From Verrucomicrobiaceae bacterium (GTDB taxonomy: Bacteria; Verrucomicrobiota; Verrucomicrobiia; Opitutales; Intestinicryptomonadaceae): a DNA stretch of 64,000 nt. The stretch covers positions 1-64,000 of the forward strand of contig SUVO01000010.1 of assembly GCA_015061955.1 (NCBI GenBank), given 5' to 3'. Below the pieces are notes generated by a model that saw only the letters and a list, made by a program, of their open reading frames with translations, was not told the DNA's origin and searched no databases. The position numbers and the translations under genes were made by a program. Positions 19,201 through 35,576 of this stretch are shown here, piece after piece; within the stretch, counting starts at the first letter, position 1, and each line of letters begins with the position of its first letter.

Positions 19201-20175
19201 TTAATATATACACTTTTTTAAACCTTCGCGAATTTCATTTTCATTTAAGTTTTCTCCAATGAAAATTAATGTATTTGTTCGTTGAGAATCTCCCCATGGT
19301 TCGCCAAGATCTACATAAATATTGTCGTGAACCCCCTGAAAGACAATTTTTCTATCGACATTTACAAAAGAAAGAACGCCTTTAGCTCTGTAAATATTAT
19401 CTCTATTTATAGCAACATATTCTTCGAGCCAATCTTTAAAAGACAAAAATGCGTAAGTGTCGGTTGTATTAATTGCCAAAGTTGTTATTTTATGTTGATG
19501 TGATTTTCCACCAACATGTGAATGCAACGCAAAACATCCACCAATAGCAGAAGAAACTTTAGATGTATCGAAACCACCTAAATTCATTATTGTCGAAGCA
19601 TCGGTTTGTGCGTAGGAGGCGTGTGTGTATTTAGCAGTGGGATTGATTGTTTTTAACAGTTTTGTGAGCTTTTCAAGATTATCGAAAGTTGAAAGATCGG
19701 TTTTATTTATAATAATGCTATCGGCAAACGCTACTTGCTCGCGAGCATGTCCATCGCCATCAAGGTGTGCTTCAAAGTTGAGAGCATCGACAACAGTAAC
19801 AATGCCATCTAACTTTAATTTTGTGCTTAATTCTGGATCAGACAATATTGCATTTGCCAACATCCCTGGATGGACAACACCAGTTGATTCTATTATTAGC
19901 CTATCGAAGTCTTGCGATTTTTCCAAAATCGAACGCATAACTTTTACAAATGCTCCACGAGTTTCGCAACATGTTCTGCCCAAAACTGTGTCTAATTTAG
20001 CTGGGGCGTATTCAGCAAGAAGTAAATCGTCGATAGGGGTATCGCCAAGTTCATTTTCTACAACAGCAATTCGCTTAGGATTTTCAAATGTAGAAAGAAT
20101 GCGTTTGAGCAACGTAGTTTTGCCCGAACCGAGAAAACCCGATATTATTGTAACTGGTAAGGGTGTATTTTGCAT
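19201..20175 (-). CDS. CobW/COG0523-family G3E GTPase (metallochaperone-like)
   Basis: The start is set at the ATG at 20175 (MQNTPLPVTIISGFLGSGKTT). An ATG 36 bases upstream adds a poor N-terminus. The 324-residue protein has Walker A GFLGSGKTT, VENELGDTPIDD, ESTGVVHP and NKTDL guanine-specificity motifs. The usual CxCC metal site is reduced to T-C-C-E. His-rich stretches (LHSHVGGKSHQHK) lie before the C-terminal CobW domain. These GTPases insert or supply metals such as Zn, Co or Ni. The target is not evident from its neighbours. Confidence 0.85.
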   Translation of the reverse strand: MQNTPLPVTIISGFLGSGKTTLLKRILSTFENPKRIAVVENELGDTPIDDLLLAEYAPAKLDTVLGRTCCETRGAFVKVMRSILEKSQDFDRLIIESTGVVHPGMLANAILSDPELSTKLKLDGIVTVVDALNFEAHLDGDGHAREQVAFADSIIINKTDLSTFDNLEKLTKLLKTINPTAKYTHASYAQTDASTIMNLGGFDTSKVSSAIGGCFALHSHVGGKSHQHKITTLAINTTDTYAFLSFKDWLEEYVAINRDNIYRAKGVLSFVNVDRKIVFQGVHDNIYVDLGEPWGDSQRTNTLIFIGENLNENEIREGLKKCIY

Positions 20176-20222
20176 AGATATAAGGCATGCAAAGTAGCGT
20201 AAAATAGTCAATTAAATATTGC

Positions 20223-21869
20223 TTATTTCAAACTTTTTAACTCAAGAGTAAATGTTATTGTACCATTGTTGGCAGTTTTTGATACCGTAGGAGTGCCTTT
20301 GTTATTATTATTGTGTATGGCTATCGCCAAGTTTGAAATAGGTTTATCTTTATATTTTTTTGGCAGATTATCAAAGTTATCGGTTCGTATAATCCAATCG
20401 AATTTACCCCTGCCAAAGAAAGAAGTTATATCGACATGATTTCCTATGTTAGACATTTTTATAATTCTAAATTCTGTTATTATTTCACTTTCTACCTTAT
20501 AGTAGTAAATCATACGCAGTTGAGCATACGATTGCTTATCGAGATAAGGTGTTGCTCGTATGAGTGCATAGGGTTTGTAATTTTTACCGTTTTTTATAAT
20601 TGTAAGAATGGGCGTTTTTTTGTTTTTCGATGTATCTAACAATGCTTCTGAATTACCGATAATGTAGTTTTTGTTATCGGGTTTTAAGGTAAGTTTAGCA
20701 GAATTTGCATTTTTGTTCAAATTGTTTGCTTGTTCTATAAGTTTTTTAGTAGCTATTGGTTGAGTTGCACCACAAAGTTTTGCAATTTCAGCCGAAGCCA
20801 TTAAGAAAGCTCCAATACCATAGAGTTGTGTTGTATCTTTAGAGAATTTATCTGGTGAGGCTCCTATGGGTTGAACGTATCCTACTGTATAGTTTTCGTC
20901 GACAACGCTTTTCAAACCTTGCCATGCTTTTGTTATAATCGATTTGTATGAATTATCTAATAAATTGTTGTTTATACCCCATGCTAAAGCATATGCTATG
21001 AATGCACTTGACGATGTTTCACCACCTTGATAGTGCAAATTGTCGGCAAGATTTACTCCCCAAAGACCATTTTTAAGTTGAGTTTTAGCAATAGCTTTTG
21101 CCATTTTTAAATACAAATCTTTATAGTAGGGGTACGATGGATTGTCTTTGGGCATGTCGTTTAAAATTAATGTTAAGCCACCAATCACCCAGCCGTTGCC
21201 ACGTCCCCAAAATATTTTTTTACCATTTGGCGATTTTTTGCCAATAAAACGAGTATCGCGATAAAACATGTTGTCTTGAGTGTCGAAAAGTAGATTGGTT
21301 GTCCACTTGTACTCTTTGTTCATGTAATCTAAGTATTTTTGTTCGCCAGTTGCAATGTACATTCGCAAGAATGTAATAGGCGCCATGTAAAGAGCGTCGC
21401 ACCAATTCCATGCACAAACTGGTGTTCTGCCAAAATGTTTCTTTAATGGAGCTTCTCCATTGTATGTGGAGGCATCGAGTATTATTTTGTCGAGTCCTTC
21501 TTTTACTTTGAGCATGCGTTCTTTTTTAGATGTATCTGCAAGATAAGTTGCTAACCATGCGTGCGATATAGCATAATCGTCGGCGTGGTATTTTCGTTTT
21601 CCGTTGTTCCATGCTACTGCATTGCCACAGTTTATGACTTCTGCCCAATATTTTGGCTCGCCCGATATTTTTGCCAATTCAATTAAACCATCGTAATATG
21701 GAGCTATGACCCAGTCGGTGAGAGAAAATGATACACGAGGTGTTGCTATATTGCTGTCGGCAACTTTTTTTGCTAAATCTATAATTTCATTTGATGAAAT
21801 ATGTTTGAGAGTTCCAAAAGTAGTTTGAAATACTAATAGTAGTGTAAGTATAAAAGAGAATTTTTTCAT
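20223..21869 (-). CDS. GH105 unsaturated glucuronyl/galacturonyl hydrolase
   Basis: A 548-residue exported enzyme (signal peptide 1-19). Residues 25-390 form the (alpha/alpha)6 barrel of GH105 (YteR/YesR-like), with CDALYMAP containing the likely catalytic Asp158, WGRGNGW at 221-227 and HYQGGETSSSAF. These enzymes remove delta-4,5-unsaturated uronic acid from oligosaccharides made by polysaccharide lyases, for example rhamnogalacturonan fragments. The extra C-terminal 140 residues look like a beta-sandwich, making the protein longer than minimal GH105 enzymes. No lyase is nearby. It is divergent from carB. Confidence 0.88.
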   Translation of the reverse strand: MKKFSFILTLLLVFQTTFGTLKHISSNEIIDLAKKVADSNIATPRVSFSLTDWVIAPYYDGLIELAKISGEPKYWAEVINCGNAVAWNNGKRKYHADDYAISHAWLATYLADTSKKERMLKVKEGLDKIILDASTYNGEAPLKKHFGRTPVCAWNWCDALYMAPITFLRMYIATGEQKYLDYMNKEYKWTTNLLFDTQDNMFYRDTRFIGKKSPNGKKIFWGRGNGWVIGGLTLILNDMPKDNPSYPYYKDLYLKMAKAIAKTQLKNGLWGVNLADNLHYQGGETSSSAFIAYALAWGINNNLLDNSYKSIITKAWQGLKSVVDENYTVGYVQPIGASPDKFSKDTTQLYGIGAFLMASAEIAKLCGATQPIATKKLIEQANNLNKNANSAKLTLKPDNKNYIIGNSEALLDTSKNKKTPILTIIKNGKNYKPYALIRATPYLDKQSYAQLRMIYYYKVESEIITEFRIIKMSNIGNHVDITSFFGRGKFDWIIRTDNFDNLPKKYKDKPISNLAIAIHNNNNKGTPTVSKTANNGTITFTLELKSLK

Positions 21870-21990
21870 GACTAATCGTATTAGTGATTTTATTTTGTAT
21901 GTAAAATAATTAATGAAAAAATGTTCATATTTGGATTTTTTTTCATTTTAAAGGGGTTGTATTAAAAAAAAAATCATATTTGGCTTGATT

Positions 21991-22018
21991 TTGAAAAAAA
22001 TAAGTTCAGAAATATAGT
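21991..22018 (+). promoter_or_regulatory. carB promoter; transcript probably leaderless
   Basis: TTGAAA, 16 bases, then TATAGT ending 7 bases before the carB ATG. Transcription would begin at or beside the A of ATG, and no Shine-Dalgarno is present. A direct repeat TCATATTTGG (21925 and 21974), 49 bases apart, lies upstream and could bind a regulator. Confidence 0.45.
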
Positions 22019-22024
22019 CTTAAT

Positions 22025-25000
22025 ATGGCAAAACGCACAGATATTAAGTCCATCTTAATTGTAGGTTCTGGACCTATCGTAATAGGACAGGCCTGCGAAT
22101 TTGATTATTCCGGCAGTCAAGCCTGTAAAGCTCTTAGAGAAGAAGGCTATAAAGTTATATTGGTAAATTCCAATCCTGCCACAATTATGACTGATCCGCA
22201 AATGGCGGACGTCACATACATCGAGCCACTCTCGCCCGAGATTCTCGAGAAGATTATAGCAAAGGAACGCCCCGACGCACTCTTGCCTACATTGGGTGGG
22301 CAAACTGGGTTGAATTTGTCGTTAGAATTGCACAAGAGAGGCATTCTTGATAAGTACGGCGTAGAGCTCATTGGTGCTGATGCTACAGCTATCGAAAAAG
22401 GCGAAGACCGTGAGATGTTCCGTCAGGCTATGATAAAGATTGGTCTTGATGTTCCACTCAGTATTGTAGTTCATTCGCTTGAAGAAGCGTTGGAGTGGGC
22501 TGATACACATAAGAAATATCCACTTATTATTCGCCCAAGCTTTACTCTTGGTGGTACCGGTGGTGGTATTGCTTATAATAGAGATGAATTTAAAAGAATG
22601 GCAGCTTTCGGTTTGAGTGCATCGCCAGCAACAGAGATTTTGATTGAGGAATCGTTGCTTGGTTGGAAAGAGCTTGAAATGGAAGTTATGCGAGATGTCA
22701 AAGACCAGTGCATAGCTATTTGTTCAATCGAAAACTTTGACCCAATGGGTGTTCATACAGGCGATTCGATTACAATAGCTCCTGCTTTAACGCTCACAAA
22801 TAAAGAATATCAGTTGATGCGTGATGCCTCTTTTGCAATTATTCGTGAAATTGGTGTTAAGTGTGGTGGTTCAAATATTCAGTTTGCGTTGAATCCAAAA
22901 GATGGCAGAATGATTATTATTGAAATGAATCCACGCGTGTCGCGTTCATCTGCGTTGGCTTCAAAGGCAACAGGTTTCCCAATTGCAAAAATTGCTGCAA
23001 AACTCTCGGTTGGCTATACACTCGACGAGCTTAAAAACGACATCACAAAAACTACAGTTGCAAGCTTCGAGCCTGCTATCGACTACGTTGTTGCTAAAGT
23101 ACCACGTTTTGCATTCGAAAAATTTGTAGGTTCTGATAGTACTCTGACAAGCTCTATGAAGAGTGTTGGAGAAGTAATGGCTATCGGTAGAAGCTTTAAG
23201 GAATGTTTGCAAAAGGCGTTGCGTTCGTTAGAAATAGGAGCTCGTGGCTTGGGCGGTGGTGGAAAATTTGGCGATTCCGATATAACAGATATGTCGGTGT
23301 TGAGCAAAAATTTGGTACGTCCGCATGCAGAAAGAATTTTCTATATTCGCTACGCTTTGTTGGCTGGAATGTCGCAAGAACAAATTAGCGAGCTTACAAA
23401 AATAGACCCATGGTTTATTCGTGAAGTTGCGGGTATTGTTGAAATCGAAAAAGAATTGGCATCGGCAGGTTTGTTGAATTTGAATAAAGACTTGCTCGAA
23501 CGTGCAAAGAAAGCAGGTTTTACCGATTTGCAAATTGCAACAATCTGCAATACAAAAATTCGCAATATTAAGAAATTGCGTGATGATTTTGGTATAAATA
23601 CAGTGTATCGCTTGGTTGATACTTGTGCATCGGAATACGAAGCTTATACTCCTTATTATTACTCTACATACGGAGTTGATAATGAGCTTAAACCTTCCGA
23701 TAAGAAAAAGATTATGATTATCGGTGGTGGTCCAAATAGAATTGGTCAGGGTATTGAGTTTGACTATTGCTGTGTTCATGCCTCGTTTGCACTTCGTGAA
23801 GCTGGTTATGAAACTATAATGGTAAATTCAAATCCAGAAACAGTTTCTACCGACTATGATACTTCGGATAAATTGTTCTTTGAACCTCTAACGCTTGAAG
23901 ATGTATTAGAAGTTTACAAACAAAATAAGTGCGATGGAGCTATTGTTCAGTTTGGTGGACAAACTCCGTTGAATTTGGCGAGTGAGCTTAAGGAAAATGG
24001 TGTAAATATTATTGGTACAACACCAGAATCTATCGATGCTGCCGAAGACCGTGAAATTTTCAAACGCATTCTCGATAAACTCAACTTGCGTCAGCCGGTA
24101 AATGCAACTGCAACAACACCAGAAGAAGCGTATAAGTTGGCTGGGCAGATTGGATTCCCAATATTGCTTCGTCCATCATTTGTTCTTGGTGGTAGAGGTA
24201 TGTTTATTGTCTATGGTATGGATGATATGAAAAAGGTTATCCGTGAAGCATTTGAGGCTGCCCCAGGTAAGCCTGTGTTGTTGGATAAATTCCTTGAAGA
24301 TGCTATCGAGCTTGACGTTGATGCTATCAGCGATGGTGAAACTACAGTAATTGGTGGTATGCTTGAGCATATTGAATACGCTGGTGTTCACTCAGGCGAT
24401 GCTGCAATGGTATTACCTCCACATACATTGCCAGAAAATATCCTCGATGAAGTTCGCAAAGCAACTTACGATTTAGCAAAAGAGCTTAAAGTTGTTGGCT
24501 TGATGAACATTCAGTTTGCGATAAAATCGGGTGATGTTTATATCTTGGAAGTAAATCCACGTGCCTCGCGTACAATTCCATTTACATCTAAGGCTATCGG
24601 TGTTCCGTTGGCAAAGCTTGCAGCTCGAGTAATGGCTGGTGAAAAGCTCAAAGATTTAGGTTTTACAAAAGAAGTAAAAATTCCATATATAGCAGTAAAA
24701 GAAAGTGTATTCCCATTTGTTCGCTTTAGTGGAGCAGCTATTATGTTGAGTCCGGAAATGCGTTCAACTGGTGAAGTAATGGGCTTAGATATGGATTTGG
24801 GTACAGCTTTTGCTAAAAGTCAAATTGCAGCTCAACCAGGATTGCCATCGTCGGGTAATGTGTTCTTGTCGGTAAAGGATCATGATAAGGCATTGGCAGT
24901 TGAAATTGCAACGTCGCTTGATAAACTTGGCTTCAAGATTTTCTCGACCGAAGGTACAGCAAAGTTGTTGCGAGAAAATGGTATTCCAGTAACTCGTACA

Positions 25001-25270
25001 TATAAGCTAAATGAAGGTGCGCGTCCGAATGTTGTGGATATGATAAAGAACGATGAAATGGCGTTGATTATCAATACACCGTCGGGTATGTATCCACGAA
25101 TGGATGAAAATCAAATACGACAGGAAGCTTTGTTGAAAAAAGTGTGTATGATAACAACAATCATGGGTGCGTATGCAGCTATAAAGGGTATCGAAGCAAT
25201 GCGTAATAAAGACTTGAGCGTGAAGTCGCTTCAAGAGTACATGACAATGTTAAACGAACAAAAGAAATAG
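22025..25270 (+). CDS. carB: Carbamoyl-phosphate synthase large chain
   Basis: A full-length 1081-residue CarB. It makes carbamoyl phosphate from bicarbonate, two ATP and ammonia for arginine and pyrimidines. Two ATP-grasp halves are intact: [20 protein letters not shown] opens the first, [19 protein letters not shown] opens the second near residue 560, and a C-terminal MGS-like regulatory domain begins near 950. Nothing looks damaged. It precedes carA by 4 bases, the reverse of the common carAB order. The glutaminase partner has lost its catalytic cysteine, so this subunit may depend on free ammonia. Confidence 0.97.
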
Positions 25271-25274
25271 TACT

Positions 25275-26411
25275 ATGAATACGGCAGTATTAGCATTTGA
25301 AGATGGTAGTGTTTACAGAGGCAAGGGTTTTGGTGCAACAGCTACGGCTCTTGGCGAAGTAGTTTTTAATACCTTGATGATGGGCTACGAAGAGGCTCTT
25401 ACAGAACCATCGAATTATAAAAACATATTGGTCATGACATTCGTTGAAATTGGTTGTTATGGAATCAATGAAGAAGACGGCGAAAGTGATGGCATAAAAG
25501 CTTCGGGCTTAGTAGTTGCTCAGGAATGCGAAGTTCCAAGTAATTGGCGTTGCAAAATGAGTCTGAACGATTATCTCGTAAAGAATAATGTACCAGCAAT
25601 TAGTGGCATTGATACTCGTGCAATAGCTAAGAAGCTCCGTTTGAACGGAACAATGAAAGCTTGTCTTTCAACTGAAGATATTTCTGATGAAGAAGCAGTT
25701 GCTCGTGCAAAGCAATGGCAAGGCATAGAAGGTGTCGATAGCGTTAAAGATGTAACTTGTAAAGAAGCTTATAGCTTTGAAAATAGTGGCGTAGATTTAA
25801 CCCCTTTTGCTATTGGTGGCGTTCATATCAATAATAAACCTCGCAAAACTCCACTTAAAAAGTGCGCAGTAATCGATTTTGGTGCGCCAAAGTCGCAGTT
25901 GAAAAGCTTGGCTTATAGTGGTTTCGATGCAACTGTGTTCCCAGCAAATGCAAGTGCTGAAGATGTTTTGGCATCAGGGGCGCAGTGCTTGTTCCTTTCG
26001 AGTGGAGCAGGTGATGCGTCGGCATTGGATTATGCACATAAAACAGTAGCAAAACTCGTTGAAAAATTGCCAACATTTGCAGTTGGTTTGGGGCATCAAG
26101 TTTTGGCAATAGCTTTAGGGGCAAAAACTTTGAAACTTAAGTTTGGTCATCATGGTGGTAATTATCCTGTGAAGAATCTTGAAAGTGGTAAAACTTCAAT
26201 TACTTCGCAAAATAATCTATTCTCGGTCGATGCAAAGTCAATAGAAGGTACAGATTTAGTTGTTACAGAAGTAAATTTAAACGATGATGCAGTAGCTGGT
26301 ATAAAGCATAAAAGTTTGCCAGTGTTCTCGGTTCAGTATCATCCAGAATCAGCTCCTGGGGCAACAGGTCAAGAGTATATTTTCGACAAATTCTACGATA
26401 TGGTAAAGTAG
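25275..26411 (+). CDS. carA: Carbamoyl-phosphate synthase small chain, glutaminase apparently inactive
   Basis: A 378-residue CarA homologue of normal length, translated 4 bases after carB. The N-terminal CPSase domain (1-150) and C-terminal class-I glutamine amidotransferase fold (195-378) are recognisable. The nucleophile elbow, usually ICLGHQ, reads VGLGHQ, so the catalytic Cys is Gly271 (codon GGT at 26085-26087). The usual SNGPGDP loop reads SSGAGDA, and QNH reads QNN. His356 and Glu358 of HPE are kept. Glutamine hydrolysis should be abolished, and the protein may remain as a structural or allosteric partner with ammonia as nitrogen donor. A terminator follows. Confidence 0.93.
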   Translation: MNTAVLAFEDGSVYRGKGFGATATALGEVVFNTLMMGYEEALTEPSNYKNILVMTFVEIGCYGINEEDGESDGIKASGLVVAQECEVPSNWRCKMSLNDYLVKNNVPAISGIDTRAIAKKLRLNGTMKACLSTEDISDEEAVARAKQWQGIEGVDSVKDVTCKEAYSFENSGVDLTPFAIGGVHINNKPRKTPLKKCAVIDFGAPKSQLKSLAYSGFDATVFPANASAEDVLASGAQCLFLSSGAGDASALDYAHKTVAKLVEKLPTFAVGLGHQVLAIALGAKTLKLKFGHHGGNYPVKNLESGKTSITSQNNLFSVDAKSIEGTDLVVTEVNLNDDAVAGIKHKSLPVFSVQYHPESAPGATGQEYIFDKFYDMVK

Positions 26412-26432
26412 TATTACAGTGTAAAATTTTAG

Positions 26433-26469
26433 ACAGACAACATCGTTTTGGTGTTGTCTGTTTTTTTTG
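26433..26469 (+). terminator. carBA terminator
   Basis: CAGACAACA pairs with TGTTGTCTG followed by eight or more T. A second copy of this terminator occurs at 33821-33853 behind a decayed carA fragment. Confidence 0.8.
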
Positions 26470-26614
26470 TGTTTGAGTTTTGAGTATTATTCAAAAATAA
26501 ACAAGGTTTTCCCAAATTGCACTTGACTAAATATGCTCAATTTGTAGGATTTTTTTGGTGATGTGGGGTTGTTTGGTGCAACTTCTATAACTTTAATGAT
26601 ATATAGAAAAAAGT

Positions 26615-28393
26615 ATGAAAAAAATAATAACAATAATATTTGCAACAATAATTGCGTCGGTTGCGTTTTCGCTCGAAACAGCAACTATAAGAATTACTAA
26701 AAAGGGTGGTGGTGTAATTGAAAATAAAGTAAATTTGCAAAAACAACCAGACGGCGCAATGCGTGTAAAGATACCCGTAAAAGATATAAAGGCAAATTAT
26801 CGCTTAATAGATGTAGTGGCAGATTGTGCGTATGCGAAAAAAGGCGATAAGGGGTTCTTTGTAATGGGTGATAGTTCGTATGGCGAGTTTATCTACGATA
26901 ATGGCGAATATTCGCCACATCATTGCCATATGCCTATATTTGGTATGAAAAGCCCAAACGGCACATTTGTTGGTATTGTAAAAGGTTTGCGTCATGAACA
27001 AATACAAGTTGTTCAGGCAAACAATGGTAAATACTCAACATTCTTTCGTTATAGATTTGATAGAACGTTTTTCGACCCATACGAAGATATAGTTGTAGAC
27101 TTCTATAAACTGCCCGATGATGCTGGATATAGCGAAATGGCAAAAGTGTATCGCGATTATCAACTAAAGCGTGGCGAAGTTAAGCTTTTGCGTGAGCGTG
27201 TAAAAAACAATCCAGCACTTGAGTATACAGCAAAGTCGATTTATGTTCGTGTAAAGCATTGTGCAAAAAATTCTCAATATAGTAATCCAGAGCATCACGC
27301 ACAGTCGGTTGAACGCGAAGCTCCACTTTCGGTTTGGTTTACTTTCGATGATATGAAAGATATCATGAAGCGTATAAAAGACTTGGGTATGAACGATGTT
27401 GAAGTGTGTTCGGTAGGTTGGACAATCAGAGGTCATGATGGTCGTCATCCACAGTATTTTCCAGTTGAACCAGCTATTGGTGGTGAGGAAAAATTCCGCG
27501 AAGCCATTAAATTTGGGAAAGATTTAGGTTTTCATGTAAACTGTCATATAAATCAAATGGCAATGTTCTATGTTTCTGATCGTTGGGACGCTAACGCAGT
27601 TGCCAAAAAATTTGATGGCGCTTTGTTTTTAGATTATTTTCAAGGTGGTGGTATGGCATTCCGTCCATGCTGGAAGCCTTTGTACGAACGTTGGGTAAAA
27701 GATGATTTCCCAAGAATGAAGAATTTGGGCTTAAATGGTATTATGCATGTTGATGTAACTTCGATGATTGATTCGTACGAATGTCATGACCCAATGCATA
27801 GAATTAACAAACAGCAGATGGCTGATTATATGAATAAGGTTAATGCGTATGCTCAAGAAATTTTTGGAGGCTTTGCATCGGAAGGTTGTACCGACCACGT
27901 TATTAAGCACTTAGACTTTGGTTTGTACTTGTGGGCATATCCTGCATGGTACGGACATTCAAAGCGTTTGGCAACAAGCTATGTACCATTCTGGCATTTG
28001 GTGTATCATGGTATTGTAATAAGTAATCCGTACTATTGCACTATTGACCCAACTTATGTAAAAGAATATGCACGTTCTGGACAACCTAAGGCATACGATT
28101 ATCTTGAAAATCCTACAAATCGTTGGTTGAAAGTAGTTGAGTATAACGGACGCCCAACGTTCTATTATCTCACATATAAAAATCTTGAACCTATGAAGCG
28201 CGCATACGATGAATATCAGAAATTGCGTTATTTACAGATGCAGTTGATGGAATATCATTCTGAAATTTCAAAAGGTGTTTTCTTAACACGTTATGAGTAT
28301 GGCGATGAAGTGGTAGTAAATTATACCGATAAGCCATACACATATAAAGGGCAGACTGTTTTGGCAAAGAATTACAAGTTGTTTAAAAAATAA
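26615..28393 (+). CDS. Secreted TIM-barrel glycoside hydrolase-like protein (GH101/GH129/DUF5696-like), copy 2
   Basis: A 592-residue exported protein (signal peptide 1-19). The N-terminal beta domain (to about 175) precedes a TIM-barrel-like core with MHVDVTSMID (candidate nucleophile Asp) and GFASEGCTDH (candidate acid/base Glu). The motif FWHLVYHGIVIS and the tail AKNYKLFKK match the other copies. An extended -10, TGATATATA, ends 9 bases before the ATG, so the mRNA leader is very short. It is convergent with and very similar to copy 3 (28631-30418), sharing a 101-bp identical block in inverted orientation. The substrate is probably an amino-sugar-containing glycan, by family analogy only. 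Confidence 0.65.
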   Translation: MKKIITIIFATIIASVAFSLETATIRITKKGGGVIENKVNLQKQPDGAMRVKIPVKDIKANYRLIDVVADCAYAKKGDKGFFVMGDSSYGEFIYDNGEYSPHHCHMPIFGMKSPNGTFVGIVKGLRHEQIQVVQANNGKYSTFFRYRFDRTFFDPYEDIVVDFYKLPDDAGYSEMAKVYRDYQLKRGEVKLLRERVKNNPALEYTAKSIYVRVKHCAKNSQYSNPEHHAQSVEREAPLSVWFTFDDMKDIMKRIKDLGMNDVEVCSVGWTIRGHDGRHPQYFPVEPAIGGEEKFREAIKFGKDLGFHVNCHINQMAMFYVSDRWDANAVAKKFDGALFLDYFQGGGMAFRPCWKPLYERWVKDDFPRMKNLGLNGIMHVDVTSMIDSYECHDPMHRINKQQMADYMNKVNAYAQEIFGGFASEGCTDHVIKHLDFGLYLWAYPAWYGHSKRLATSYVPFWHLVYHGIVISNPYYCTIDPTYVKEYARSGQPKAYDYLENPTNRWLKVVEYNGRPTFYYLTYKNLEPMKRAYDEYQKLRYLQMQLMEYHSEISKGVFLTRYEYGDEVVVNYTDKPYTYKGQTVLAKNYKLFKK

Positions 28394-28406
28394 TATCAAC
28401 CCTTGC

Positions 28407-28441
28407 AAAAAAAAGAACAGCTAACACTGTTCTTTTTTTTG
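28407..28441. terminator. Terminator after hydrolase copy 2
   Basis: An A-run with GAACAG pairs with CTGTTC and a T-run around CTAACA. It is symmetric. Confidence 0.75.
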
Positions 28442-28581
28442 TAGCATTAATATGAAATTTAAAGATGATATTGAAAAAATTACCCTATAATAGAAATTGT
28501 CCAATACTATTTTTACGCCACTTTTTCGAGAATGGACACCTTTATATTGAAGTGCAGTGGCTTTTCGGGTAATAGATAATA

Positions 28582-28614
28582 AAAAAAGACATACTTTTAG
28601 GTATGTCTTTTTTG
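28582..28614. terminator. Terminator after hydrolase copy 3
   Basis: AAAAAAGACATAC pairs with GTATGTCTTTTTT around a short loop, downstream of the minus-strand gene. It is symmetric. Confidence 0.75.
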
Positions 28615-28630
28615 TGATATAAATAAGATT

Positions 28631-30418
28631 TTAGTTAGCTTTTTTGAATAGTTTAAAGCCTTTTGCCGATACTTCTTGTCCCTTGTAGGTGAAAGGCTTA
28701 TCTGTATAATTTACTACCACTTCATCGCCAAACTCGTAGCGTGTGAGGAACACGTTTTTAGAAATCTCGCTATGATGTACCATTAGTTCCATTTGCAAGT
28801 GGCGTATTTTTTGGTAATCGTCGTACGCACGCTTCATAGGTTCGAGATTTTTATAATTTAAGTAGTAGAATGTTGGGCGTCCGTTATACTCAACTACTTT
28901 CAACCAACGATTTGTAGGATTTTCAAGATAATCGTACGCTTTGCGTTGATTTGAACCAACGTATTCTTTTTTATATGGGGCATCGATTGTTGTGTAATAT
29001 GGATTGCTAATAACAATACCATGATACACTAACTGCCAGAAAGGTACATATTTTGTTGCAAGGCGTTCTTTGTTATCTTCCCACACTGGATACGACCACA
29101 AATACAAACTGAAGTCTAAGTGTTTTATAACGTGGTCCATACCACCTTCCGATGCAAATCCACCAAAGACTTTGCGTGCGTATGCGTTTACTTTATTCAT
29201 ATATCTTGCCATTTGCTTTTTATTGAGCTTATGGCGAGGGTCGTGGCATTCATACGATGGTACTGCCGATGTCACATCGACATGCATAATACCATTCAAG
29301 CCTAAATTTTTCATTCTTACAAAGTCGTCTTTAACCCAAAGTTCGTAGAGGCGTTTCCAACATACACGGAATGCTCTGCCTGATGGTTGGAACGAATCGC
29401 TGACAAACGAGCCATTATATTTTTTTGCAACTTCGTTAGCGTCCCAACGATCAGAAACGTAGAACATTGCCATTTGATTGATATGGCAGTTTATCTGGTA
29501 GCCCATATCTTTACCTATTTGAATTGCTTCGCGGAACTTTTGTTCGCCACCAATAGCTGGTTCAACTGGGAAATATTGTGGATAACGTCCGTCTTGACCA
29601 CGTGTCGACCACCCAACCGAGCATACTTCAACATCGTTCATTCCCAAGCCCTTCATACGTTTCATAATATCTACCATATCATCGAATGTAAAACGCACGC
29701 CAAGTTTTGGTTCGGTTTCAGGTGTTTGCAAGTGATGTTTTGCATTGTTCGGATTTACATTCTTACCACAATGGCGAAGTCGTACATAAATTGATTTTGC
29801 TGTATACTCAAGTGCTGGATTATTTTTTACACGCTCACGCAAAAGCTTAACTTCGCCACGCTTTAGCTGATAATCACGATACACTTTTGCCATTTCGCTA
29901 TATCCGGCATCATCGGGCAGTTTATAGAAGTCTACAACTATATCTTCGTATGCCAAGAATTGTGTAGTATCGAATCTATAACGGAAGAATATCGAGTAAA
30001 CTCCGTTATCGGCACGCACAACTTGTATTTGTTCATGACGAAGACCTTTTGCAATGCCAACAAATGTGCCGTTAGGGCTTTTCATACCAAATATAGGCAT
30101 ATGGCAATGATGTGGCGAATATTCGCCATTATCGTAGATAAACTCGCCATACGAACTATCACCCATTACAAAGAAACCCTTGTCGCCTTTCTGAGCAAAT
30201 GCACAATCTGCAACAATGTCTATAAGTCGGTAATTTGGCTTAATATCTTTTACAGGAATTTTTACACGCAACCCACCATCTGGTTGAGGCGTTAGTGGAA
30301 CAACTTTTTCTATTACCTCTTTGGTCTTTTTTATGTAGAAGCGTAGTGTTACTGTTTCAAGTGCGAACGACACTGATGTCATTGCACTCAAAACGACTGC
30401 CAATAATAATTTTTTCAT
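28631..30418 (-). CDS. Secreted TIM-barrel glycoside hydrolase-like protein (GH101/GH129/DUF5696-like), copy 3
   Basis: A 595-residue exported protein (signal peptide 1-19), with AAAGGA 8-9 bases before its ATG. It has the same layout as copy 2, with MHVDVTSAVP and GFASEGGMDH carrying the putative catalytic Asp and Glu, and FWQLVYHGIVIS near the end. Amino-acid similarity to copy 2 is high over the full length. Stretches of near-identical DNA alternate with diverged ones, a mosaic expected from gene conversion between inverted paralogues. The function is inferred as a periplasmic or surface glycan hydrolase. Confidence 0.65.
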   Translation of the reverse strand: MKKLLLAVVLSAMTSVSFALETVTLRFYIKKTKEVIEKVVPLTPQPDGGLRVKIPVKDIKPNYRLIDIVADCAFAQKGDKGFFVMGDSSYGEFIYDNGEYSPHHCHMPIFGMKSPNGTFVGIAKGLRHEQIQVVRADNGVYSIFFRYRFDTTQFLAYEDIVVDFYKLPDDAGYSEMAKVYRDYQLKRGEVKLLRERVKNNPALEYTAKSIYVRLRHCGKNVNPNNAKHHLQTPETEPKLGVRFTFDDMVDIMKRMKGLGMNDVEVCSVGWSTRGQDGRYPQYFPVEPAIGGEQKFREAIQIGKDMGYQINCHINQMAMFYVSDRWDANEVAKKYNGSFVSDSFQPSGRAFRVCWKRLYELWVKDDFVRMKNLGLNGIMHVDVTSAVPSYECHDPRHKLNKKQMARYMNKVNAYARKVFGGFASEGGMDHVIKHLDFSLYLWSYPVWEDNKERLATKYVPFWQLVYHGIVISNPYYTTIDAPYKKEYVGSNQRKAYDYLENPTNRWLKVVEYNGRPTFYYLNYKNLEPMKRAYDDYQKIRHLQMELMVHHSEISKNVFLTRYEFGDEVVVNYTDKPFTYKGQEVSAKGFKLFKKAN

Positions 30419-30471
30419 AATGTATATTCCTTTTATATAGATATTTTGTCGTTGAAATTTTTAATCAAAAA

Positions 30472-30496
30472 AATGGTATTGAAGTACAATACCATT
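30472..30496 (-). terminator. Terminator of the PEP-CTERM gene
   Basis: AATGGTATTG pairs with CAATACCATT, followed by T-rich sequence on the minus strand. Confidence 0.7.
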
Positions 30497-30546
30497 CTTT
30501 ATTTTCAGATTATTAAATTGAAATGAACTGTCAAGCTTCTACTAAC

Positions 30547-31863
30547 TTATTTGCGCTTGCGATATGCAACAAAACTCAATGCCAATGCACCAAATATAAC
30601 TGCAAATGTAGCTGGCTCTGGAACTGCTGGTATATTTGCAGTTATATAACCAGTAGCTGAGTCCCAATACAATGCTGTGTTGCTATCGGCATTACCACTT
30701 TTTATACAGGAAATTTCATAGTTAGGGTCTAAGAACTTTTCATCAATATTTTGAAAACAAATCAATTCTTCTTCAAAATCGCTGATGTAAATTGTACCAA
30801 TTAATGCTGTACTCAAGCCATTAAGGTCTAAGCGATTACCATTTAATGTAATATAAAGCTTAGAGTTTGCGTTAGAATCAATATGTATATTGCCTAATGA
30901 ATTATCGGCGCCTAAAATGAGTTCTGCTGTAGATGGGGTACCTTCGTACTGACCAATTTCTAACGAGATGTTTTCTTGACCCATAATTGTGCCGTCGTCT
31001 TTCCTTATGCCAATTGCATTCGACGAATTCAATGTAAGTGTCGAATTTCTCATAATGAGTTTTTTATCGGCTTCATTTCCATAACGAAATAAAACAGAAT
31101 TTTCTTCTGAATCCTCAATGGTCATACTTACTCCGTTGCCAACTAAGTCCCAACGACCACCAAATAAAGTAGCTTTTGATGCTGTTTGACCTGTAATATA
31201 GTTTGTGCCATAAACATTCAATGAACCTGCACGTTTGAATACCAACTGACCAGCAATAGTAGAGCTAGCAAGGTGGTTTACTCCCGAACCATCAAACTTT
31301 AATTCTGCAACAGAACCACTTTCAATATCTAAAGAAACCTTGTTTGTTGTTGCTGTATTAGCACCTTCAAATTTTAATATACCATTATTTTTTACAATCC
31401 ACTTTGTTGAACCATGAGTGTAATGAGATTTACCCGACAACTGAATATCAAGTGTTACATTATCTACGGTAAAACCATTTACCATTAAACCAACAGATGT
31501 TGCTCTTTCGGTTGCTTGAATTGTGATGTCGGCCTCATTTGTTGAACCGATAAATTTTACACCATTTAAACCAAAGTAATTTCCACTACCCGATACAACA
31601 GCGTCAGAAACCAATTGTGTGCCTTTGTATGCACCTACATTTAGTGTCATTTTATCTATGTGGCGTGCTGATGTACGGTTGTGTGTGATTATAACACCAT
31701 CGGAGCCTACTGTATACTGACCACCAGCTTCTAAAACGCCTGTGTTTGTTCCATCTGTATTACCTGCAGATGTGAGTGGGGCTGCAGAAGATATCATATC
31801 TTCTGCAAAAGCAATGCTTGCGCTTGCAACTATGAGGGTTGTTAGTAAGGATATTTTTTTCAT
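30547..31863 (-). CDS. PEP-CTERM surface protein with beta-helix-like repeats
   Basis: This 438-residue exported protein has a signal peptide (1-20) and a C-terminal PEP-CTERM sorting signal: VPEPATF, a hydrophobic helix and the basic tail YRKRK. Exosortase would cleave this and anchor or release the protein at the surface. The middle is Gly-, Ser-, Thr- and Asn-rich with short beta-strand repeats, resembling autotransporter-like or beta-helix proteins. No exosortase is in the window. The minus-strand promoter holds a G9 tract, so expression may switch. The function is probably adhesion or matrix, and is unproven. Confidence 0.8.
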   Translation of the reverse strand: MKKISLLTTLIVASASIAFAEDMISSAAPLTSAGNTDGTNTGVLEAGGQYTVGSDGVIITHNRTSARHIDKMTLNVGAYKGTQLVSDAVVSGSGNYFGLNGVKFIGSTNEADITIQATERATSVGLMVNGFTVDNVTLDIQLSGKSHYTHGSTKWIVKNNGILKFEGANTATTNKVSLDIESGSVAELKFDGSGVNHLASSTIAGQLVFKRAGSLNVYGTNYITGQTASKATLFGGRWDLVGNGVSMTIEDSEENSVLFRYGNEADKKLIMRNSTLTLNSSNAIGIRKDDGTIMGQENISLEIGQYEGTPSTAELILGADNSLGNIHIDSNANSKLYITLNGNRLDLNGLSTALIGTIYISDFEEELICFQNIDEKFLDPNYEISCIKSGNADSNTALYWDSATGYITANIPAVPEPATFAVIFGALALSFVAYRKRK

Positions 31864-31904
31864 AAATTTTAAGTAGATAAAGTTTTATTATTATTTACCA
31901 TATT

Positions 31905-31935
31905 GTTGTACCCCCCCCCTATATGCAATTGTCAA
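31905..31935 (-). promoter_or_regulatory. Promoter with a G9 tract in its spacer (PEP-CTERM gene)
   Basis: Read on the minus strand: TTGACA (31935-31930), a 19-base spacer whose last nine bases are G (31919-31911), then TACAAC (31910-31905). It is the same layout as the promoter at 9934-9963. Loss of one or two G would give the optimal 17-18 base spacing. Confidence 0.5.
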
Positions 31936-31970
31936 GCTTTTTTTTTATTTTTTTAAAGGAAATTCTCTTG

Positions 31971-31997
31971 TTGACAATTTAATATATTTTATATTTT
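31971..31997 (+). promoter_or_regulatory. Candidate promoter of the first MGH1-like gene
   Basis: TTGACA at 31971 with TATTTT 15 bases downstream. A strong AGGAGG Shine-Dalgarno follows at 32008-32013. Confidence 0.4.
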
Positions 31998-32022
31998 ATT
32001 TTCGAGCAGGAGGCGTATTAAA

Positions 32023-33603
32023 ATGAATAAGATATTTTACACATTTGTATTTACAATTTCAGCGTATTTTTCGGCTAATGCAGACACATTAAATGACTAT
32101 GTTAATCAATTTAATAAAGACGATAACGAACTATATGTTCAACATATTCCGAATGTAAATTCCGAAGAGTTTTTGCGTAAAAATATTCCACTTTTTGAGT
32201 GTCCCGATAAAGACATAGAAAAAACTTACTACTTTCGTTGGTGGACATTTCGCAAGCACATAAAAAAGACTCCTGATGGTTTTGTTATTACAGAATTTTT
32301 GCCAGACGTAAGGTGGGCGGGTAAACACAATGCAATAGCGTGTCCGGCATGGCATCATTTTGTTGAAGGTAGATGGCTTGCCGACAAAACTTTTATTGCC
32401 GACTACTCTCGCTATTGGGTGGCTAATCCTGAAAATGCACGCAAATATAGTTTTTGGCAAGCTCATGCAAATTTAGAATACTACAAGGTATCACGCAACA
32501 TCGCATTGTTGAAAGAAATTTATCCGGCGTTAAAGGAGGATTTTTTTGCATGGGAGAAGGAGAAATTTCATGCTGATAAAGGTTTATTTTGGCAAAGCGA
32601 TAACCACGATGGCATGGAATTTTCAATATCTGGGCGACATTCAAAAACCAGATCGAATGCTTTGGGATATAGAGCTACTATAAATTCGTACATGTATGGA
32701 AATTGCATAGCGCTTTCTGAAATTGCAAAGCTTTTGGAAAATGCCAATGATGCTAAGTTCTTTGAAAATAGAGCGTTGCAAATAAAAAATGCAATCAACA
32801 CAAAGCTTTGGGATAATTCTGCTCGCTTTTATAAAGTGATTCCTTTTGAGACTTTGAAATTATCTGATGTTCGCGAGTTGCACGGTTATACGCCGTGGCT
32901 TTTCAATATTCCACCAGTAGAATATTCTGATGCATGGAAACAACTTACCGATACTAAAGGGTTTTCTGCAAAGTGGGGCTTAACCACTGCAGAGCAACGC
33001 CACCCAAATTTTCAAGTATCATATACTGGACACGAATGTCTTTGGGATGGTCCCGTTTGGCCATTTGCGACATCTATTACATTAGAAGCCCTTGCGAATT
33101 TTATAAATAATTATCCTGAATGCAGTTGGGCAGATAAGAATGTTTACTACAATACACTTAAAACTTACGCACGCTCGCACATTCGTACTTTGGAAAATGG
33201 TAAGAAAATTATGTGGATTGACGAAAATCAAGACCCATTTACTGGCGAGTGGATTGCACGCAAACGTATGATCAGTTCTGTAAATTCAAAGAATAAACAT
33301 TCTAAATATTTCATTAAAGAGCGTGGTAAAGATTACAATCACTCGCAATTTTGTAATCATGTAATTTCTGGGCTCATTGGCGTGCGTCCAACAATGCAGG
33401 GTTTCGAGTTTAAGCCATTAGTTCCAGATGATTGGCAATGGTTCTCTCTAAAAAATATAAAAATTGCCGATAAAAAAGTTGACATTATATTTGATAAAAC
33501 AGGATTAAAATATGGCAAAAAGGGTCTTCAAATTTTTGTGGATAACAAATTAGTTGTATTTTCAGAATCATTACAAAAAGCAAACGTAGATTTTACAAAA
33601 TAA
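32023..33603 (+). CDS. Secreted GH63/MGH1-like (alpha/alpha)6 glycoside hydrolase, copy A
   Basis: A 526-residue exported protein (signal peptide 1-20) preceded by AGGAGG. Its (alpha/alpha)6-barrel motifs resemble the GH63/mannosylglycerate-hydrolase-like clan: YYFRWWTFRKHI, the acidic NHDGMEFSISGR, ELHGYTPWLFNIP, WDGPVWPFATS (the WxGPxW signature) and RGKDYNHSQFCNHVISGLIG. A short beta tail follows. It probably trims a glycan in the periplasm or at the surface, and the specificity cannot be read. A close tandem paralogue lies at 33943, with a decayed carA piece between them. Confidence 0.75.
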   Translation: MNKIFYTFVFTISAYFSANADTLNDYVNQFNKDDNELYVQHIPNVNSEEFLRKNIPLFECPDKDIEKTYYFRWWTFRKHIKKTPDGFVITEFLPDVRWAGKHNAIACPAWHHFVEGRWLADKTFIADYSRYWVANPENARKYSFWQAHANLEYYKVSRNIALLKEIYPALKEDFFAWEKEKFHADKGLFWQSDNHDGMEFSISGRHSKTRSNALGYRATINSYMYGNCIALSEIAKLLENANDAKFFENRALQIKNAINTKLWDNSARFYKVIPFETLKLSDVRELHGYTPWLFNIPPVEYSDAWKQLTDTKGFSAKWGLTTAEQRHPNFQVSYTGHECLWDGPVWPFATSITLEALANFINNYPECSWADKNVYYNTLKTYARSHIRTLENGKKIMWIDENQDPFTGEWIARKRMISSVNSKNKHSKYFIKERGKDYNHSQFCNHVISGLIGVRPTMQGFEFKPLVPDDWQWFSLKNIKIADKKVDIIFDKTGLKYGKKGLQIFVDNKLVVFSESLQKANVDFTK

Positions 33604-33607
33604 TGTG

Positions 33608-33800
33608 ATGTCCCTAGTAATTGGCGTTGCAAAATGAGTCTCAATGATTTTTTGGTAAAAAATAAAATATACCAGCAATAAGTGGTATTGACACTAGAGC
33701 TATAACAAAAAACTTCGTTTGAATGGTGTGGTAAAAGCTTGTATTTCAACTGAAGATATTTCAGATGTGGAAGCGGTAAAGCGATATGGTAAAGTAAAAT
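33608..33800 (+). pseudogene. carA: Decayed carA fragment
   Basis: The DNA from about 33608 matches carA codons 87-143 (25531-25710), with shared runs such as AATTGGCGTTGCAAAATGAG and TTTCAACTGAAGATATTTC, plus frameshifting single-base changes. It then jumps to the carA 3' end (GATATGGTAAAGTA) and the carA-type terminator. It has no start, is interrupted by stops and lacks the middle of the gene. It is a relic of a second carA copy lying between the two MGH1-like paralogues. Confidence 0.85.
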
Positions 33801-33820
33801 TACAAAAATAAAATTTTGAA

Positions 33821-33853
33821 CAGACAACATCTCAAAATGTTGTCTGTTTTTTT
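33821..33853 (+). terminator. Terminator copied with the carA relic
   Basis: CAGACAACAT pairs with ATGTTGTCTG followed by seven T. It is a near copy of the carBA terminator at 26433-26469 and now serves the upstream hydrolase. Confidence 0.75.
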
Positions 33854-33942
33854 GTGTTTGTCGTCCACTATGTATATATTTTTCAAGTTTTTTTAAAATT
33901 TTTTATTGTTGATTATTTATTATATTTAGGTAGTCTTGAACT

Positions 33943-35505
33943 ATGGAAAGATTTTTTTATTGGGTGTCGTTAATCATCGTCGGGGCTTCGGCGAGTGCTG
34001 ATATATTGAATAACTATGTTGAACAATTCAACAAAGATGATAATGAATTATATGTTCAACACATTCCAAATTCAAAAGCTGAAGAGTTTTTGCGTAAAAA
34101 TATTTCGCTTTTTGAGTGTCCAGATAAAGATATAGAAAAAACTTACTACTTTCGCTGGTGGACATTTCGCAAGCACATAAAAAAGACTCCTGACGGTTTT
34201 GTAATTACAGAGTTTTTACCAAAAGTACCATGGTCTGGCAAGCACAACGCAATAGTATGTCCGGCATGGCATCATTTTGTCGAAGGCAGATGGCTCGATG
34301 ACAAAACTTTTATTGCCGACTACTCTCGCTATTGGGTGGCTAATCCTGAAAATGCACGCAAATATAGTTTTTGGCAAGCTCATGCAAATTTAGAATACTA
34401 TAAGGTTTCACGCAATATCGAATTACTGAAAAAAATTTATCCGGCGTTAAAGGAGGATTTTTTTGCATGGGAAAAAGAGAAATTTCATGCCGATAAAAAT
34501 TTATTTTGGCAAATCGATAGCCGCGATGGTATGGAGCTTTCAATATCGGGCAGATACGCAAAAAATGAATGGAATGCTAAGGGATACAGAGCTACAATAA
34601 ATTCGTATATGTATGGTAATTGCGTAGCTTTGGCAGAGATTGCAAAACTCTTAAATAACGAAGCAGATGCTAAGTTTTTTCAAAAACGTGCCTCGCAGAT
34701 AAAAGAAGCTATAAATACAAAACTTTGGGATAATTCTGCACGTTTCTACAAAGTAATTCCATTTGAATTGCAAAAGTTTTCGGATGTTCGCGAGTTGCAT
34801 GGTTATACGCCATGGCTTTTCAATATTCCACCAACAGAATATTCCGATGCATGGAAACAACTTACCGATACTAAAGGGTTTTCTGCAAAGTGGGGCTTAA
34901 CTACAGCAGAACAGCGACACCCAAATTTCCAGATATTGTACGCCAGACTTAGTAGGGGAAATTGTCGTTGGGACGGTCCTGTGTGGCCATTTGCTACATC
35001 TATTACATTAGAAGCATTGGCAAATTTTATAAATAATTATCCCGAATGCAGTTGGGCAAATAAAGATGTCTATTACGATGTTCTTAAAACATACGCGCGT
35101 TCACACGTTCATACTTTAGAAAATGGCAAAAAAGTTATGTGGATTGATGAAAATCAAGATCCATATTCAGGAGTTTGGGTTGCTCGCAAACGTATGATAG
35201 ATTTCAAAAGTAAAAATTACATAAAAGAACGAGGCAAGGATTACAACCACTCACAGTTTTGTAATCATATAATTTCTGGATTGATTGGAGTGCGTCCGAC
35301 AATGAATGGTTTCGAGTTCAAGCCATTAGTTCCAGATGATTGGCAATGGTTCTCTCTAAAAAATATAAAAATTGCCGATAAAAAAGTTGACATTATATTT
35401 GATAAAACAGGATTAAAGTATGGCAAAAAGGGTCTTCAAATTTTTGTGGATAACAATTTAGTTATATTTTCAGAATCATTACAAAAGGCGAATATAAAAT
35501 TGTAA
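33943..35505 (+). CDS. Secreted GH63/MGH1-like glycoside hydrolase, copy B
   Basis: A 520-residue tandem paralogue of the gene at 32023, with the same signature blocks (RWWTFRKHI, SRDGMELSISGR, WDGPVWPFATS, RGKDYNHSQFCNH) and a signal peptide. Main differences cluster around residues 340-350 (LYARLSRGN here) and in a short deletion near residue 435. The last roughly 155 coding bases are almost identical to copy A (four differences seen), while upstream parts differ far more, which suggests local gene conversion. The same reaction class with shifted specificity is likely. Confidence 0.75.
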   Translation: MERFFYWVSLIIVGASASADILNNYVEQFNKDDNELYVQHIPNSKAEEFLRKNISLFECPDKDIEKTYYFRWWTFRKHIKKTPDGFVITEFLPKVPWSGKHNAIVCPAWHHFVEGRWLDDKTFIADYSRYWVANPENARKYSFWQAHANLEYYKVSRNIELLKKIYPALKEDFFAWEKEKFHADKNLFWQIDSRDGMELSISGRYAKNEWNAKGYRATINSYMYGNCVALAEIAKLLNNEADAKFFQKRASQIKEAINTKLWDNSARFYKVIPFELQKFSDVRELHGYTPWLFNIPPTEYSDAWKQLTDTKGFSAKWGLTTAEQRHPNFQILYARLSRGNCRWDGPVWPFATSITLEALANFINNYPECSWANKDVYYDVLKTYARSHVHTLENGKKVMWIDENQDPYSGVWVARKRMIDFKSKNYIKERGKDYNHSQFCNHIISGLIGVRPTMNGFEFKPLVPDDWQWFSLKNIKIADKKVDIIFDKTGLKYGKKGLQIFVDNNLVIFSESLQKANIKL

Positions 35506-35540
35506 GAGAATTTATGCCTTTGGTGTTTTATTGATTTTTG

Positions 35541-35570
35541 TTGAATTTTTTTATATCTTGAATTTAATAA
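35541..35570 (+). promoter_or_regulatory. Promoter of the pyrophosphatase gene; probably leaderless
   Basis: TTGAAT, 18 bases, then TAATAA ending 7 bases before the ATG at 35577. There is no Shine-Dalgarno, so transcription would start at or next to the start codon. Confidence 0.4.
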
Positions 35571-35576
35571 TACACA

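Follow-up and report, generated by a model that had tools for sequence, protein, structure and literature searches.

The question raised by this locus is whether a carbamoyl phosphate synthetase (CPSase) whose small subunit lacks the catalytic cysteine is still an enzyme in use and, if so, which nitrogen donor it draws on. The window, by which we mean the whole stretch of 64,000 nucleotides that was analyzed (positions 1 to 64,000 of contig SUVO01000010.1, from a Verrucomicrobiaceae bacterium), carries a carB-carA operon in which the CarA residue aligned with E. coli Cys269 is glycine. We refer to this CarA and to the CarB encoded with it as the Gly type, and to proteins of the usual kind as the Cys type or canonical. 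The features of the locus are the following.

22025 to 25270, forward strand: carB, the large synthase subunit of the Gly-type CPSase, 1081 aa (TIGR01369, 1504 bits)
25275 to 26411, forward strand: carA, the small subunit, 378 aa, with a putatively dead glutaminase site (TIGR01368; member of the Gly clade)
25998 to 26018, forward strand: oxyanion-hole loop SSGAGDA, canonically SNGPGDP (alignment; P242A fixed in the clade)
26085 to 26087, forward strand: GGT codon for Gly271, aligned to E. coli Cys269 (translation and alignment)
26208 to 26219, forward strand: glutamine-site loop QNNL, canonically QNHG (alignment; Gly313 lost throughout the clade)
26340 to 26348, forward strand: HPE, which holds the triad residues His353 and Glu355, kept in the window and changed in several other clade members
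26433 to 26468, forward strand: terminator-like hairpin followed by a T run, 3' of carA (read from the sequence)
33602 to 33860, forward strand: decayed remnant of a second copy of the Gly-type carA (internal piece, 3' end and terminator)

An initial annotation of the window had claimed that the GGT codon puts glycine in place of the catalytic cysteine, that SNGPGDP reads SSGAGDA and QNH reads QNN while HPE is intact, and that this carA is full length and coupled to a normal carB; all of these claims held. Translation and alignment to E. coli CarA place the glycine in a nucleophile elbow that reads PTFAVGLGHQ and confirm both altered loops and the unchanged HPE. To these we add the loss of Gly313 (E. 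coli numbering), a residue of the glutamine site that is leucine here; Asn240 and Pro242 are lost as well and Gln273 is kept. The start of carA lies 4 bases past the end of carB, and the CarB protein is full length, with both ATP-grasp sites and the residues of the allosteric domain present. Against TIGR01368 the window CarA scores 392.2 bits, above the curated cut-off of 307.35. The curated models name this protein glutamine-hydrolyzing because they score overall similarity and not the catalytic residue, and caution is needed with HMM annotation, which labels the Gly-type enzyme in this way.

Several observations were made on the surroundings of the operon. The carA remnant aligns with the gene in two stretches, one of 177 bases (80%) and one of 81 bases (81%), and has no intact frame; it sits between two tandem paralogous genes, and a hairpin at about 33.8 kb resembles the carA terminator. 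Nearby are four large genes that look secreted and form two pairs of close relatives (32023-33603 with 33943-35505, and 26615-28393 with 28631-30418), one pair tandem and the other inverted, which suggests local duplication around the operon. A similar short sequence of about 45 bases is found upstream of the Gly-type carB in 8 genomes (21984-22027 in the window), in which TTGAC or TTGAT precedes runs of A and T near the ATG; it may be a promoter common to these genomes whose leader is very short. No Rfam match that would point to an RNA regulator near the operon was found in positions 20000-36000 of the window.

To place the glycine among related proteins, CarA was searched in 54 whole genomes of the order and matches were obtained in 45. 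One genome of the same genus (G010, a single contig listed as 95% complete) gave zero matches to every query and was excluded, its sequence being probably unusable. Glycine occupies the Cys269 position in all 10 CarA proteins of a single clade, which come from 10 genomes of the window's own family and have the elbow VG[LF]G, or IGLG in G015. Cysteine is found there in 13 of 13 Cys-type CarA proteins of the family and in 22 of 22 compared from the other families of the order. When a collection of bacterial and archaeal genomes was scanned across bacterial phyla, 79 of 80 CarA loci had cysteine, and the one exception (L108, titled uncultured Opitutales bacterium) is a copy of a contig of the clade member G012. 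We also screened 373 genomes of the order with a DNA pattern for the Gly elbow, which matched carA in this family only, although the pattern misses variants such as those of G004, G012 and G015 and other cases may have been overlooked. In the CarA tree the ten Gly-type proteins form one group (support 98), nested among Opitutales CarA, with that of the window sister to that of G004 (support 99), and the CarB proteins linked to them also form one group (support 97). The loss of the cysteine and the existence of the clade are thus directly shown, and the check for the cysteine in orthologs that the initial annotation had advised finds that the relatives in the clade share the glycine. As a side observation, G017 has a piece of a Gly-type carB at a contig end and also a Cys-type pair of CarA and CarB that is divergent, its CarA being about 36-40% identical (L040, L106); this pair may be foreign or a contaminant.

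These data bear on the simplest objection, that the glycine is an artefact or belongs to a decaying gene, whether through sequencing error or as a pseudogene on its way out. The decayed carA piece in the window and the drifting glutaminase loops could be read in its favor. Against it, the same glycine is present in nine other genomes, which rules out sequencing error, and a pseudogene is ruled out by the open, full-length frames and by the strong purifying selection seen in CarB and in the N domain of CarA, so that this explanation is all but excluded.

What remains of the glutaminase site argues that glutamine is no longer hydrolyzed. Cys269 and His353 are both essential to glutamine hydrolysis in E. 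coli (PMC6245113). The catalytic cysteine of the elbow is absent throughout the Gly clade, Gly313 is lost in all of its members, His353 is replaced in 5 of 9 members and Glu355 in 2 of 9. The window CarA therefore lacks the defining catalytic feature of the glutamine-hydrolyzing family and should not be called a glutaminase; that it cannot hydrolyze glutamine is likely, and is inferred from sequence alone. One could propose that glutamine is still used, by means of another nucleophile or of hydrolysis mediated by water. The intact HPE and Gln273 of the window CarA speak for this, as some glutamine-site features do remain, and they are a counterpoint to dependence on ammonia; however, no other cysteine in the elbow replaces Cys269, and with the changes at the three other positions and the requirement for Cys269 and His353 in E. 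coli we consider residual glutamine use very unlikely.

The reading of the initial annotation has to be refined in one respect: the change goes back to a duplicated carB-carA pair that arose close to the family's base. Both a Cys-type and a Gly-type CarA are present in seven relatives (G005, G007, G008, G012, G013, G014 and G016), the two being 55-59% identical to each other inside one genome, and these seven also have a separate normal CarB. The canonical carA and carB are unlinked: carA adjoins rnhB or an HMGL-like gene, or lies between them, in most genomes read, and carB precedes a short conserved gene and sufC-sufB-sufD. The Gly-type pair has the order carB-carA wherever both genes share one contig. 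Fixed differences between the paralogs number 14 in CarA and 20 in CarB. The Gly clade thus derives from an old duplication of carA and carB and not from a change within the species of the window.

We then asked whether any other CPSase is available to the genome of the window (G000) and to its sister, G004. In each of the two, whole-genome searches found a single gene for the small subunit and a single gene for the large, which together are the Gly-type pair. For G000, PF00988 and PF02787 returned no second carA or carB, and the only extra carA DNA is the decayed piece at 33602-33860; the second intact carA that the initial annotation had named as its refutation was not found. Both are draft genomes (93% and 97% complete), which is a reservation; the places where the canonical genes usually lie were examined on contiguous sequence. 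In G004 the interval between rnhB and the HMGL-like gene holds a 738-codon gene and no canonical carA (L088), while in G000 rnhB (L090) and the HMGL-like gene (L089) are apart and carA is beside neither. The suf cluster has no carB upstream in either genome (L193, L194). Because these sites are present on contiguous sequence without carA or carB, gaps in the drafts are not the cause of the absence, which is a finding and not an inference. As G000 and G004 are sisters, a single loss event may explain both. In G015 only the Gly-type pair was found, with contigs that end too near the canonical sites to decide; dependence on the Gly-type form is clear for G000 and G004 only and remains a possibility for G015.

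The pathways that consume carbamoyl phosphate have been retained. Both G000 and G004 keep argC-J-B-D-F-G and pyrB-C, as judged by sequence and order, and for G000 curated models bore out the identity of argF, argG, pyrB and pyrC. Carbamate kinase was considered as another source of carbamoyl phosphate and rejected: in no genome of the family did a match exceed the curated cut-off, and in G000 and G004 nothing matched. With the arginine and pyrimidine genes kept, no carbamate kinase and a single CPSase, the Gly-type enzyme is the only candidate found that could supply both pathways.

The synthase subunit is under strong selection. In the seven species with both enzymes the Gly-linked CarB has a mean identity of 95.5%, versus 87.8% for the canonical CarB, and is the more conserved in 21 of 21 pairs; the window CarB is 91-93% identical to the Gly-linked CarB of its nearest relatives. 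Recent horizontal spread as the cause of this high identity was rejected because fourfold degenerate sites are saturated, about 0.6 of them being different in both CarB sets. The CarB residues examined at the ATP, ornithine and UMP sites and at the ammonia gate are all kept; in the window CarB each of them matches either E. coli or the family's canonical CarB. For CarA the two domains behave differently: in the Gly type the GATase domain is 77.4% identical and the N domain 82.7%, whereas in canonical CarA the order is reversed (77.8% and 73.4%, respectively). When near-invariant positions were defined from 36 Cys-type CarA proteins, 34 of 74 in the GATase domain were altered in at least one Gly-type CarA, versus 13 of 52 in the N domain. 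The purifying selection and the intact CarB sites are shown by these comparisons; the pattern is the one expected if the synthase works while the glutaminase site has fallen idle, an interpretation that rests on sequence. A different possibility is that the Gly-type CarAB has acquired a new job, as a regulatory pseudo-enzyme or as a ligase that takes a different amine or makes a different product. The fixed differences between the paralogs may be cited for it, but all catalytic and allosteric residues of CarB are kept and this is the only CPSase found in G000 and G004 while the arginine and pyrimidine genes remain, and we regard a new job as very unlikely.

The reading that we favor is that this is a selected, ammonia-dependent CPSase, a bacterial counterpart of vertebrate CPS I and the sole CPSase here. 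We hold it to be likely, with the use of ammonia inferred and no activity data available; the initial proposal of a shift to free ammonia is to this extent supported at the level of sequence, without an assay. Human CPS1, which has Ser294 in place of the cysteine, cannot use glutamine (PMC4655335), and by the same logic the Gly-type enzyme should be ammonia-dependent. It also fits that E. coli CarB makes carbamoyl phosphate from ammonia in vivo, going by the title of Rubino 1987 in the reference list of PMC6245113. Two points speak against the reading: the E. coli CPSase requires very high, probably unphysiological ammonia (PMC6245113), and we found no sequence features of CarB that point to a better affinity for ammonia. 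Gly293 and the CarB gate residues Cys232, Ala251 and Ala314 are kept in the Gly clade, and for this reason entry of ammonia through the old glutaminase site is conceivable. The same intact path would also serve a rival explanation, in which CarA is glutaminase-dead and CarB is fed not from bulk ammonia but by a partner that docks or increases the ammonia nearby, such as a separate glutaminase, glutamate dehydrogenase or a deaminase. The neighborhood of the operon in G008 (L104, 1926-14810), where the Gly-type carBA adjoins a NifA-like sigma-54 activator, the small and large subunits of glutamate synthase, a PII-like gene and amt, can be counted in favor of a partner. However, no conserved neighbor was present at the operon in the eight loci read, and a partner-fed CarB appears unlikely. 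Seen on its own, the G008 neighborhood may be a link to nitrogen supply, in one genome only.

The ammonium transporter offers some context for the ammonia-dependent reading. Amt (PF00909) is absent from 3 of 3 genomes in which only the Gly-type CarA was found (G000, G004 and G015) and present in 12 of 13 genomes with the family-type Cys CarA, G013 being the exception (Fisher p 0.007), a result that is statistically weak with two sisters among the three genomes. Across the family, PF00909 is absent from these four genomes and G017 and present in 13 other members. The loss of Amt nevertheless fits a high-ammonia habitat in which there is no need to scavenge ammonia. The ammonia-rich gut suggested initially has not been shown, the loss in Gly-only genomes being merely consistent with it, and a high cytoplasmic ammonia is likewise inferred.

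Comparison with known systems defines what is unusual in this enzyme, whose family and fold are evident from matches to HMMs and to PDB sequences. It shares with vertebrate CPS I an intact synthase, the retention of an inactive glutaminase domain and an origin as a specialized form beside a glutamine-dependent CPSase. Vertebrate CPS I is, in contrast, a single-chain, mitochondrial, NAG-activated and ureagenic enzyme, while the Gly-type enzyme has two bacterial subunits and a Cys to Gly change and is apparently the sole CPSase in G000. In human CPS1, moreover, the ancestral tunnel is closed by Gln318, which stands in place of Gly293 (PMC4655335), and the Gly clade keeps Gly293. Membership in the vertebrate CPS I/III lineage is not met, as there are two separate bacterial genes and a CarA nested among Opitutales CarA; functionally the Gly-type CarA would resemble the inactive domain of CPS I, an inference from sequence alone, but by descent it stands outside that lineage. 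With bacterial CarAB (CPS II; E. coli, TIGR01368/TIGR01369) it shares the sequence family, the subunit make-up and the catalytic and allosteric residues of CarB, but it lacks the Cys269 nucleophile, is altered in the oxyanion loop and at Gly313, and has the order carB-carA. Laboratory mutants of Cys269 in E. coli CarA (PDB 1c30/1c3o, with serine there) likewise lose the nucleophile in an otherwise intact CPSase; those were engineered, whereas the Gly-type CarA is natural, inherited across the family and accompanied by further changes in the site. The carbamate-kinase-like CPS of Pyrococcus (PMC6245113, PMC6022934) is another prokaryotic enzyme that turns free ammonia into carbamoyl phosphate, but its kinase fold is unrelated, and the window's family has no carbamate kinase match over the cut-off. 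The CPS III of Alcolapia fish (PMC7657897) is a separate shift toward ammonia within the CPS family, in which, unlike here, the triad is kept, one glutamine-binding residue is changed and glutamine is still usable. The open-access literature searched (subscription papers were not covered) yielded no description of a bacterial CarA that naturally lacks its cysteine.

In the scheme that we propose, carA and carB would have been duplicated in the ancestor of this Opitutales family and brought together as carB-carA. The duplicate CarA would then have lost Cys269, after which its glutaminase site drifted while the synthase subunit came under very strong purifying selection. CarB would take ammonia from the cytoplasm, which might enter via the old glutaminase site, rather than ammonia from glutamine bound by CarA, and CarA would be retained as a structural partner that keeps CarB and the ammonia tunnel in shape, a role that is also inferred. 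The relatives would run this enzyme alongside the normal glutamine-dependent one, and the lineage of G000 and G004 would have lost both normal genes, carA and carB, so that arginine and pyrimidine synthesis would rely on the ammonia-dependent form alone. A bolder reading, which we also consider likely in the absence of activity data, is that a naturally evolved bacterial CPS I began as a second isozyme and replaced the glutamine-dependent enzyme, coupled to the loss of the ammonium transporter.

Glutamine was given as the physiological donor for E. coli in a 2018 review, and the Gly lineage would be, on sequence grounds, a natural counter-example to glutamine as the donor. The stages are all visible in living species, with the normal enzyme alone, both enzymes, or the Gly-type enzyme alone. 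The family may thus provide a parallel to the shift that gave vertebrate CPS I, and a natural series in which to learn what CarB needs in order to use free ammonia and why a CarA that is dead for catalysis is kept.
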